Source: Kiritimatiellia bacterium
GTDB taxonomy: Bacteria; Verrucomicrobiota; Kiritimatiellia; SS1-B-03-39; UBA6053
Direction: 5' to 3'
NCBI GenBank assembly: GCA_018401235.1
Contig: JAGYLC010000004.1
Location: forward strand, 1-58,292
DNA length: 58,292 nucleotides
Part shown: in pieces, positions 48,316-52,856 of the stretch
Layout of the letters: each line of letters opens with the position of its first letter
How positions within the stretch are numbered: position 1 is the first letter of the stretch
The notes under the pieces: model-generated
Databases searched by the model: none
What the model saw: the letters and a program-made list of their open reading frames with translations, nothing else
What the model was told of the DNA's origin: nothing
Translations under genes and position numbers: made by a program

Positions 48316-49113
48316 TTAGAAAATTCGTTCGGGTATGAAGACCACATCGCCCGCGCGCAGACTCACATCCTCCGCTTGTTCGCCTCTTCTGGCCAAGACA
48401 TTCAGGTCTACCCGAATTAATTCCACGGTATCTTCCTGCGGGTGAGGACGATAAATCCGGATAGACCCTTTGTTTGCGGACGCGGCTACGCCTCCCGCGC
48501 GTTTTACCGCCCCGCTCACGGTGAGCAGGCCGGTTGCGGGCATCGAAATGGGGCCGGGGGATGCGACATTCCCCATCATGGTGATAAATCCCCAGGGGGA
48601 TTCGCTCGGATCTTCGGGGGAACCCACGAACTGTACACTGACCAGAGGGGCCTGGTAATATTCCTTATAGGATTCCGTGAGCATTTTTTCGATGTCAAGC
48701 AGGTCCATTCCCCCCACTCGTACGTTCATCAGCAGTGGAAGCCCGATTTCTCCCGCCTGGTTAATTCGCTGGGCTTCGGTTGCCAGTTCGGCCTGGCCTT
48801 GCACCATCACCGTGACCCGAATCATCATGCCGTTGCGGATAATGCCGGAGGAACCTTCCGGAATCCAGCCCTGGGCATTGGCGGCGATATTGAAAGCGGC
48901 TATTTCCTCCTCCGTAGCGTCACCCGTGTCATTTTTGGCAATCGCTTCCTGAGCTTTTGCGACCGGGATGCGAATACGTTGAGTTTGGGTATCCGTGCTG
49001 GGCGGCAGGACGAGTTCGCTTTTCACAGGAGCGAGTAAGGACAAGAGGAGAATCGCAAGAGCTGCTTCCCACCTGAAATGGAATCCGGTATGAAGGAATG
49101 GAGCTGTTTTCAT
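48316..49113 (-). CDS. polysaccharide-export (Wza-like)/SLBB domain protein
   Basis: LTVSGAVKRAGGVAASANKGSIRIYRP...VDLNVLARRGEQAEDVSLRAGDVVFIPERIF, N-terminal signal peptide. Confidence 0.75.
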   Translation of the reverse strand: MKTAPFLHTGFHFRWEAALAILLLSLLAPVKSELVLPPSTDTQTQRIRIPVAKAQEAIAKNDTGDATEEEIAAFNIAANAQGWIPEGSSGIIRNGMMIRVTVMVQGQAELATEAQRINQAGEIGLPLLMNVRVGGMDLLDIEKMLTESYKEYYQAPLVSVQFVGSPEDPSESPWGFITMMGNVASPGPISMPATGLLTVSGAVKRAGGVAASANKGSIRIYRPHPQEDTVELIRVDLNVLARRGEQAEDVSLRAGDVVFIPERIF

Positions 49114-49154: not shown

Positions 49155-50381
49155 TTAAAGAAAATCTATGATGCCTTTCCAGTCGTCCACCACCACATAC
49201 CGGGTGGGGCTTTCTTCGGAGACGGGTTCAAGCAGTTCATTGTAAAAGGAATCCTGCAGATCTTTTTTTAACTCACGATTGGTGGATTTCCAGTCGCCGC
49301 TGCTCTGTTTTTCCGAAATCTTTATAAGCAGTTCCGCCAGGGAATCTCCGTTTTCGGGTATCAATTTCTCCAGCAGTTCGATAAATTCCACCGGGGGGGC
49401 GGGGGCGTCTTCGTTGATGTTTTTAACATCGAAATCGGCTTCAGTCAGGGTGGGGAGGTCCTGTTCCTCTTCCGCCGGAGCCTCAGCTTCAGCAGAGCCG
49501 CCTTCCACCATGTCCACAGTGTCCAGGAGCGGGTCCACCTCCGCGTTGCCGGAGGGGGCGCTCCTGCGGCTTGGCCGTTTTTTGCGGGGAGTGGTTTCTT
49601 CACTGACGGCGTTGTCCTCCTCGTCCGTGTCTTCCGGGATGTCCTCTCCGGGGAGCAGCACATGGCTGGCATTCCCTTTCTCCACCAGTTGGATGAGGTT
49701 GCGGCTGGCCGCATCGGAAATGAAATCCTTAAACTTACGCATGGGGCGCCCGTCCTGATCTTTCATGCGGGTTTCGTCAAAGCGACGCATCCGGCGGCGC
49801 ATCCGCTGCTTGAGGGATGTGAGCAGGACCCGTTGTCCTTTTTCCCGTCCGCGGGTGACTTCATCGACCAGGATTTCATACGGATCGAGTTTGGGAGCTG
49901 AATCAGAGTCGTCCCGGCTGGATTTTGCGTTCTGTGAACGTCCGGACCAGATGGCCACATCGTCGCAAACGGAGCGGAGGCCGTCGAGGGTGCCCCGGTC
50001 GGTGCCGGCGATGATCACGTTGTAGCCCGCCCGTTGCAAAAACGCGGCGGGACTCGCCAGGCGTTCGGTGTCCGACCCAGCCAGAATGAATTGGCTGATG
50101 TGGGCGTAGGTGCACATAAATTCGTGCAGACGCACCATCAGACCTCCGGTTAGGGCGGCGGAGGTGTCACTTGCGGAGGCCAGAACAGTGAGGCTCGCGC
50201 CCCCATCCAGCAGCATGGATGCGGTTTTTTCGGAGAGGGGATTATCGGAAATCACTTCTACGTGCACGATGCGTTCATCTGAATTGGGTAGTTGTTTTAA
50301 ACTCCGCAGGTCGCCGGGTAGTTGCCCGCTGTCGGGGAGTTCGTCTGTGGAAATGGAAATAAAAATTGCGGTATCGCTCAT
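49155..50381 (-). CDS. degenerate NYN-like domain plus OST-HTH/LOTUS domain protein
   Basis: HISQFILAGSDTERLASPAAFLQRAGYNVIIAGTDRGTLDGLRSVCDDVAIW (NYN-like) followed by DPYEILVDEVTRGREKGQRVLLTSLKQRMRRR...RPMRKFKDFISDAASRNLIQLVEKGNASHVLLPGE (LOTUS-like). Confidence 0.6.
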   Translation of the reverse strand: MSDTAIFISISTDELPDSGQLPGDLRSLKQLPNSDERIVHVEVISDNPLSEKTASMLLDGGASLTVLASASDTSAALTGGLMVRLHEFMCTYAHISQFILAGSDTERLASPAAFLQRAGYNVIIAGTDRGTLDGLRSVCDDVAIWSGRSQNAKSSRDDSDSAPKLDPYEILVDEVTRGREKGQRVLLTSLKQRMRRRMRRFDETRMKDQDGRPMRKFKDFISDAASRNLIQLVEKGNASHVLLPGEDIPEDTDEEDNAVSEETTPRKKRPSRRSAPSGNAEVDPLLDTVDMVEGGSAEAEAPAEEEQDLPTLTEADFDVKNINEDAPAPPVEFIELLEKLIPENGDSLAELLIKISEKQSSGDWKSTNRELKKDLQDSFYNELLEPVSEESPTRYVVVDDWKGIIDFL

Positions 50382-50482: not shown

Positions 50483-51232
50483 TCAACGCAATTTTAAATT
50501 ACGTAGTTCTTTCCAGTATTTTTGATCGTTTTCATCAATGAAATGTGCTGAAAAAGGGCGTAAAGCCCCGGATCCCTTCAGCGGCAGGTCGGAGGTGGTG
50601 CCAATCAGGACCTCATTGTGACTGTGCGGAGGGCGCACGGCCCGGACGGAGGGGAAGCGGGTGAGAAAGGCTTTGCGGGCACCGCGATGCAACAGGTGAT
50701 GTCCGCGTCCCACCACGAAATTCATCACCAGGCTTCCGCCCGGAACCAGCTGTCGGGCGTGCCCGGAGAGCATGGCTTCGTTGACGGCGGCCGGGCGTTC
50801 CACGTCGCGGTCCCCGCAGCGATAGAGGTCGTCTACCACCACGTCGTATCTATTCAGGTTATGCTCGAGGAAATCGAATGCATCCGCTTCGATCACCTCT
50901 ACATTCAGGCGGTCCAGTTCCATGTGGCGGCGGGCGAGTCCGATCATTTCCGAATCGATTTCAACGGCGGTAATGGAGATGTCCGGCAGAAACTGCCGAA
51001 GTTGACGCAACACGGTTCCGCCCCCCAGACCGAGCATGAGCAGATGGTTGTGCTCCCCCGGATGCAGCAGGACCGCGGCGGTGATGGCATCCCAGGCGTG
51101 TCCGGTCATCAATCGGGTCGGATGCCAGGTGGCGTGGGTGGCGCCGATGACGTTGAAATCAATGCTGCCATCCCAATTTTCCCAGACATCCACATCATTG
51201 TAGGGGGTTTGGATGGACTCCAGACGTCTCAC
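50483..51232 (-). CDS. spermidine synthase-like methyltransferase
   Basis: LMLGLGGGTVLRQLRQFLPDISITAVEIDSEMIGLARRHM, DVVVDDLY. Confidence 0.85.
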   Translation of the reverse strand: MRRLESIQTPYNDVDVWENWDGSIDFNVIGATHATWHPTRLMTGHAWDAITAAVLLHPGEHNHLLMLGLGGGTVLRQLRQFLPDISITAVEIDSEMIGLARRHMELDRLNVEVIEADAFDFLEHNLNRYDVVVDDLYRCGDRDVERPAAVNEAMLSGHARQLVPGGSLVMNFVVGRGHHLLHRGARKAFLTRFPSVRAVRPPHSHNEVLIGTTSDLPLKGSGALRPFSAHFIDENDQKYWKELRNLKLR

Positions 51233-52152
51233 GGGGACACTCCATATTTTTCCTCTAGATACTCGAAGAGCCCGTAGAGTTCATCATCGCTGAGAGCCCG
51301 GTCATACAGATAGAGTTCGCCGATCCAGCCACCGTAATCGTAGTCGCCCGACTCCAGACCTCCCACTTGCAGGGCCGGGAGGATATTATCATCCGGTTGG
51401 AGCTTCGACGAAGCAGATTCCGCCAGATGGGCGGCATGATTTCCAAGGAAAGCCTCTTCCCGCTCCGGCCTACGCCGGAAACCTACAACAAAGGGTTTGG
51501 CGCGTTCGGTGGATGAGAGGGTGAGTCTGGCCAGCCCTTTTTCGGTCTCGAAGACGAAACCGCCGGTGAGGGAACCGCTGGCGTAGATTCGAAAGCTACG
51601 GGTGCCCGCTGCCCGGGGATGAATTCCCAGCAGGACTTGTTCCGTTGCTGAGGAAGCCTTGGGATCATGATGACTGATAGTGACCAGCGTAAATTCGGGT
51701 TCCCGATGCAGGGAGAGAGAGGAGGCCATGCGCTTGCCCGTCAGCATCAGTACCGGCGGTAGTGGGGGGTGGGAGTCTACGACGGGTTGCAGGTCGGGGT
51801 TTGCCTGTAAAAAGGTATACTGCGGATTTTCCGGATCGGACCAGGTTCCGGCGTGCCCATATACGGAACTGGTGGCTCCTGCGGGGTCGAGGTGGAGGAG
51901 CAGATCGGGGATCTGGTCGGGAGTGATCGGGTCCCTCTGCACATCTGGAATCGGGGTGGGAACCGGCGTGGCGGTAGGTTGGGGCATGGGGGTTGGAGCC
52001 GGAGTGGCCGTGGGAGAGGGGGGGGGCGAAGCTGGAGCCGGGGTGTCGGTAGGTGCCGGGGTGGGAGAGGCTGCGGGCACTGCGGACCGGCGTTTCCTTT
52101 CCGGTATCGAGATCAACATGGCAAGCACGATACCGGTAAGCACCAGCAGCAC
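51229..52152 (-). CDS. TM + Pro/Thr linker + LamG/concanavalin-like domain; likely the detached C-terminal half of the upstream kinase
   Basis: TM segment (FVLLVLTGIVLAMLISIP), PTP-rich linker, C-terminal YGGWIGELYLYDRALSDDELYGLFEYLEEKYG. Confidence 0.65.
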   Translation of the reverse strand: MLLVLTGIVLAMLISIPERKRRSAVPAASPTPAPTDTPAPASPPPSPTATPAPTPMPQPTATPVPTPIPDVQRDPITPDQIPDLLLHLDPAGATSSVYGHAGTWSDPENPQYTFLQANPDLQPVVDSHPPLPPVLMLTGKRMASSLSLHREPEFTLVTISHHDPKASSATEQVLLGIHPRAAGTRSFRIYASGSLTGGFVFETEKGLARLTLSSTERAKPFVVGFRRRPEREEAFLGNHAAHLAESASSKLQPDDNILPALQVGGLESGDYDYGGWIGELYLYDRALSDDELYGLFEYLEEKYGVSP

Positions 52153-52856
52153 GAACCAGCCAATGGATTCCTTTGTTCGGTTCGGTTTACATGGTAAACG
52201 GGTGCGTTTGTGGGCGTGGGAATTTCCCGTTGCCCGCGTGGCATCAGGGACTTGAGTTCGTGAAGGTGCTGGTTCAACTCCTGATAATCGGAGGGTCGGT
52301 TTTCGGGTCGGCGCTGAAGCAGGATATTCCTGGGCATGACATCCCCGTGCATGATGCCCTGTTCATGCATGTCCTTCAATCCGAAAACGATCCCCTGTAC
52401 GAAATCCACGATCTGAGATTCGGTCAGCGTCTCGTTTTGCATCACTTCATGCAAAAAATTCCCTTCGATATGCTCCATCACCATGAAAGGTTGCCGATTA
52501 TGTATCCCAAATTCGTACACTTTGAGCACGTAAACGGAATTCAGGGAGGCGGCGGCCAGAGCCTCGCGCTTGAATGCCTCCACCAACTCCGGATTTTTAC
52601 TCAGCACGTAGTTGAGGATTTTCAGGGTTACATTCCGGCCCAATTTAGGATCAAACGCGTCGAACACGGAACTGGTGACGCTTTCACTTTGCAGGTGATA
52701 GAGCAGAAAGGGGCCGAATTTACCGGGGACGGTGATCTCGTTGCCGCAATGCGGACATGTCATCTGGGTGAAGGCCTCGGGGTATGGGCTGGATAAGGCT
52801 ACGCCGCAACGCGGGCAACTAAAGGTTTCCAGAGAATCGAGGGTGACGTCTTGCAT
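52113..52856 (-). pseudogene. zinc-ribbon Ser/Thr protein kinase lacking its activation segment, then frameshifted
   Basis: CPRC/CPHC ribbon; VTLKIL; IMHGDVMPRNILL joined directly to QRRPENRPSDYQELNQHLHELKSL; no DFG or APE. Confidence 0.65.

Follow-up and report, generated by a model that had tools for sequence, protein, structure and literature searches.

The window (the whole 58,292-nucleotide stretch of DNA that was analysed) contains, at positions 49155 to 50381 on the minus strand, a gene whose 408-amino-acid product is best read as related to the bacterial NYN-LOTUS (LK-nuclease/OST-HTH) RNases but nuclease-dead, and is probably a non-cutting RNA-binding regulator. As the residues for cutting are nearly all lost in every relative found and the RNA-binding part is the most conserved, this pseudo-NYN-LOTUS protein probably binds RNA without cleaving it.

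The original prediction had placed a 408-amino-acid open reading frame here, and we located it at exactly that position. Full-length orthologs were found in nine further genomes, all of one taxonomic family (f1; its named records are Kiritimatiellota/PVC-group bacteria); none of the 10 copies, that of the window included, has internal stops, and a chance reading frame is thus excluded. The gene is present in 10 of the 11 f1 genomes searched and absent from all 277 other genomes of the class that were searched. Among the closest usable pairs, dN/dS was 0.006–0.12 in the NYN domain and 0–0.03 in the LOTUS domain, values well below 1 that indicate a maintained gene under purifying selection.

Domain architecture and constraint

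The N-terminal part of the protein (residues 1–146; 49944 to 50381, minus strand) had been described as having the shape of an NYN/LabA nuclease. Searched as a single sequence, the window protein has no match in Pfam, NCBIfam or the PDB sequences, and the assignment therefore needs its relatives and the structure. Three of the nine orthologs match the Pfam NYN profile (PF01936) below threshold (E 0.046, 0.07, and 0.16), the first two colinearly over almost the whole profile; the best ortholog scores 14.7 bits against a gathering cut-off of 24.2. Matches to FtsY, uL14, and nitrite reductase in a PDB profile search were set aside as chance. An AlphaFold2 model, the check proposed for the NYN fold, was built from a shallow alignment of 9 sequences (pLDDT 72 overall and ∼85 in the N-terminal domain; pTM 0.39) and gives residues 1–146 the alternating strands and helices of a PIN-like alpha/beta fold. 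When this model was compared with 350,542 PDB chains using Foldseek, the best four matches were NYN domains, namely three MARF1 chains (6fdl/5yaa) and VPA0982 (E 5e-5 to 8e-4, probability 1.0), MARF1 being the best at E 5e-5; the LK-nuclease/DUF88 assignment rests on the VPA0982 structure (PMC2848206). In hhalign comparisons, the NYN domain alone matched a diverse NYN-LOTUS set with P 1.2e-4, a score reached by 0 of 100 shuffles; the same domain did not pass against the canonical set only, as 2 of 100 column shuffles reached the score. The model and the profile matches support a predicted NYN/LK-nuclease fold for residues 1–146, the shape originally claimed.

The middle domain (residues 166–246; 49644 to 49886, minus strand) is better conserved than any other part of the protein. 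Its profile (residues 166–248), searched against 289 genomes of the phylum, gave a weak match (E 0.05) aligned to the LOTUS domain of a 338-amino-acid reading frame, L042. The latter is a canonical NYN-LOTUS protein, matching Pfam NYN at 1.2e-36 and OST-HTH at 0.0023 with 18.2 bits, below the cut-off of 23.8 that its relatives L119 and G014 pass. Most of the other class and phylum matches that we read were chance, including UvrB (L030, L034, L051) and an OmpH-like protein (L033). Against 30 canonical sequences, the domain alone gave hhalign P 1.2e-5, with 0 of 100 shuffles reaching the score. The elements predicted in the AlphaFold2 model come in LOTUS order, three helices (167–180, 187–197, 217–226) being followed by a two-stranded wing (231–235, 238–242). 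The hallmark Y-G-F/Y before the third helix is missing, and all orthologs have RxKDxxG(R/K)PM instead. The basic LOTUS-like domain that had been noticed is supported, from profile comparisons with L042 and the canonical set, as a putative divergent LOTUS domain.

The long acidic linker expected after it is present at residues 247–325 (49407 to 49643, minus strand), has a charge of −17 to −44, and is predicted to be disordered, with pLDDT below 50 for residues 252–283 and 285–307. Within it, a DPLLD..D motif (residues 283–290; 49512 to 49535, minus strand) is nearly invariant in the ortholog alignment. The second, C-terminal wHTH suggested at the outset was upheld in one respect only: residues 330–408 (49158 to 49394, minus strand), ending in VDDW..IIDFL, have a winged-helix-like topology in the AlphaFold2 model, but they show no sequence similarity to LOTUS (hhalign P 0.18–0.32), and a second LOTUS copy at the C terminus was unsupported by the sequence profile.

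A Foldseek search with the LOTUS and C-terminal part of the model returned generic winged helices, none of them a LOTUS and none with E < 0.1. Since these are DNA-binding winged helices and the middle domain is very basic, the protein could be a transcription factor that contacts DNA through the middle domain and the C-terminal wing and uses the NYN fold for dimerization only. We regard this as unlikely: the wHTH matches are weak, with E > 0.1, and by profile the middle domain matches the LOTUS domains of NYN-LOTUS proteins, a family predicted and reported to bind RNA.

Relationship to the NYN-LOTUS proteins is most evident over the whole length. The full protein matched the 30 canonical sequences with hhalign P 3.4e-6 and the diverse NYN-LOTUS set with P 9e-7, the latter alignment being colinear over both domains (51–236 to 52–240); its score of 53.8 compares with a maximum of 24.0 among the shuffles (0 of 100 reach it) and with 13.0 after reversal. 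The full-length score against the canonical sequences was likewise reached by 0 of 100 column shuffles, and reversal removed the signal in these comparisons and in that of the middle domain. The mean identity in the pseudo-NYN-LOTUS family is 53.1% in the NYN and 82.4% in the LOTUS domain, against 85.4% and 65.8%, respectively, in the canonical NYN-LOTUS proteins of the class; as the canonical set is taxonomically broader, what counts is which of the two domains ranks higher in each set and not the absolute identities. The net charge of the LOTUS domain is +4 to +9 in the pseudo-NYN-LOTUS family versus about −3 to +2 in the canonical proteins. In family f1, it is now the LOTUS domain, and no longer the nuclease, that bears the selective weight.

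Of 146 class genomes, 64 carry canonical NYN-LOTUS, the sister family f2 being represented among them. In the f1 genomes searched, the only match is a weak one in G092, which we consider chance, as its contig carries type I restriction and related genes. This distribution is suggestive of the pseudo-NYN-LOTUS gene having replaced the canonical gene in f1. Against replacement, many other families also lack canonical NYN-LOTUS, and a neighborhood shared between the pseudo-NYN-LOTUS and canonical genes was sought and not found. In a tree, the family forms a long branch; because of this, its placement was not achieved, and descent from the canonical gene was not separated from descent from another NYN branch.

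Gene neighborhood

The ortholog loci have a conserved cluster order consisting of a Ser/Thr kinase, a spermidine-synthase-like protein, and the pseudo-NYN-LOTUS protein. In the window, the conserved neighbor, a spermidine-synthase/methyltransferase-like protein, is encoded at 50483 to 51232 (minus strand) and a protein with a zinc ribbon, a Ser/Thr protein kinase, and a C-terminal region at 51229 to 52856 (minus strand); the zinc-ribbon kinase gene precedes the spermidine-synthase-like gene wherever the contig extends far enough. On the other side lies a gene for a polysaccharide-export (SLBB) protein-like product (48316 to 49113, minus strand); of the nine ortholog loci read, five have such a gene directly after the pseudo-NYN-LOTUS gene. 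G101 is the one f1 genome searched that lacks the pseudo-NYN-LOTUS gene; there, the spermidine-synthase-like and SLBB genes lie side by side in divergent orientation (L146, G101:C276:10934-12500), and the pseudo-NYN-LOTUS gene has thus been gained or lost between them.

Clustering with a Ser/Thr kinase would also fit a protein-interaction adaptor without a nucleic-acid role, which the adjacent kinase would target or bind. The acidic linker with its conserved DPLLD motif is consistent with such a function, and LOTUS domains of animals bind Vasa (PMC5458760). This explanation appears unlikely to us, however, as a LOTUS domain that is nearly invariant and has gained positive charge suits a nucleic-acid surface, and this genome has a broken kinase but an intact pseudo-NYN-LOTUS gene.

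The kinase genes vary in their own right. What is usually a single reading frame of ∼650 amino acids in relatives is present here as two overlapping reading frames at 51229 to 52856 (minus strand), the kinase part being without ∼95 C-lobe residues; the split is either genuine or an artifact of the assembly. In strain B12222 (L002:2981-4156), the neighboring kinase has 391 amino acids and is without the C-terminal region of other relatives, that region thus being dispensable.

Erosion of the active site

The catalytic positions were located with the profile alignments, those of strand 1 by eye. As had been noticed, the window copy has AGSDTER in place of SGDSDF and an altered N-terminal motif, FISIST, which stands where FCDFEN is expected. 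Across the 10 orthologs, position 9, the beta-1 Asp that closes strand 1, reads SSVVTALAAA (S/V/T/A/L); the Asp of KNxxD maps to position 74, which is S, T, G, E, or D; and position 80, the helix Asp, is Gly in all 10. The first and second Asp of SGDSDF, positions 104 and 106, read DDDDQQEEEE and EDDDEDENSS, respectively. The sole canonical catalytic acid that is invariant in 10 of 10 orthologs is D140, the last NYN Asp, and the conserved acidic active site of PF01936 is missing from the family.

The eroded active site originally inferred from the single copy therefore extends to the whole family. Orthologs with the full acidic tetrad, which would have made the losses local to this copy, were sought by checking Asp conservation, and 0 of 10 have the full set; the acid losses are common to all. 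The 10 intact orthologs, which share these losses, and the dN/dS values rule out a reading of the window copy as a local mutant or decaying pseudogene.

Other positions of the NYN domain hold an acid in every one of the 10 orthologs, either invariant or alternating between D and E (D3, D/E13, E/D14, E42, D46, and E87), which makes a relocated metal site possible, and judging from these sequences the domain may keep residual or relocated catalysis. We consider it unlikely that the NYN domain remains a nuclease whose active site has been rearranged, using D13/E14, shifted by about one helical turn, together with D46, E87, and D140: all these positions are invariant or always acidic and D140 is the retained last NYN Asp, but the helix Asp is replaced by an invariant G80, the beta-1 position is small or hydrophobic, the SGDSDF positions drift freely, the NYN domain is less conserved than the LOTUS domain, the opposite of the catalytic family, and in MARF1 cleavage is strongly reduced once two active-site Asps are changed (PMC6294520).

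Proposed function and known systems

From the computed fold, homology, acid loss, reversed constraint, purifying selection, and gene cluster, we infer RNA binding, lack of cleavage, a regulatory role, and a partner. In a non-cutting RNA-binding regulator, the NYN fold would be kept as a structural or interaction module after loss of its metal-binding acids, and the strongly basic LOTUS domain, under the tightest constraint, would bind RNA; LOTUS domains are reported as RNA-binding (Ding et al.). The flexible acidic linker would carry the small C-terminal winged-helix-like domain, which probably contacts a partner, and the parts together could form a regulator perhaps tied to the neighboring Ser/Thr kinase. 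A bolder version, which we offer tentatively and think rather unlikely, is that a bacterial NYN-LOTUS RNase has become an RNA-binding hub that no longer cuts but forms condensates or RNPs and is controlled by the neighboring kinase, with the basic LOTUS domain, the acidic disordered linker, and the partner-binding C terminus as its parts; it would be a functional counterpart of the nuclease-free LOTUS proteins of eukaryotes.

Among the latter, Oskar, TDRD5/7, and MIP-1/2 use LOTUS without an active nuclease, and MIP-1/2 have disordered regions (PMC5458760, PMC8331183); unlike the pseudo-NYN-LOTUS protein, they have no NYN remnant, and the likeness is one of way of working only, with no sign of descent. 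MARF1 (Limkain b1) is likewise an NYN-LOTUS protein, with the NYN domain closest in structure to ours, but it keeps the active-site Asps 358, 426, 427, and 452 and cleaves RNA (PMC6294520), whereas most equivalents of these Asps are missing here.

An NYN domain followed by OST-HTH is a stereotyped bacterial architecture (PMC2848206), and the pseudo-NYN-LOTUS protein resembles the bacterial LK-nuclease (DUF88/NYN)-OST-HTH proteins (PF01936 + PF12872) in this domain order and in the full-length profile match. It differs from them in the lost acids, in a strongly basic LOTUS domain without YGF, and in the additional acidic linker and C-terminal domain. It differs also in having a conserved neighborhood, as a survey of bacterial NYN-LOTUS genes reports no conserved linkage to known RNA-processing systems (PMC2848206). 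Nearly all descriptions of bacterial LOTUS proteins concern fusions to an active NYN/LK nuclease. An entire bacterial family with this architecture but without the active site, in which constraint has passed to the LOTUS domain, is a simple natural experiment on LOTUS acting alone in bacteria, and would illustrate a route from an RNase to an RNA-binding regulator.

Three proteins of the same phylum (L111, L114, and L117; 406–467 amino acids) similarly combine NYN-LOTUS with a further C-terminal region. They differ from the f1 family in keeping most of the catalytic acids, and their C-terminal similarity to it, at P 0.007, is not established. One of the three, L114 (G401:C329), has lost the Asp at the start of the NYN helix, with NTAAG for NSADI, possibly an independent erosion.
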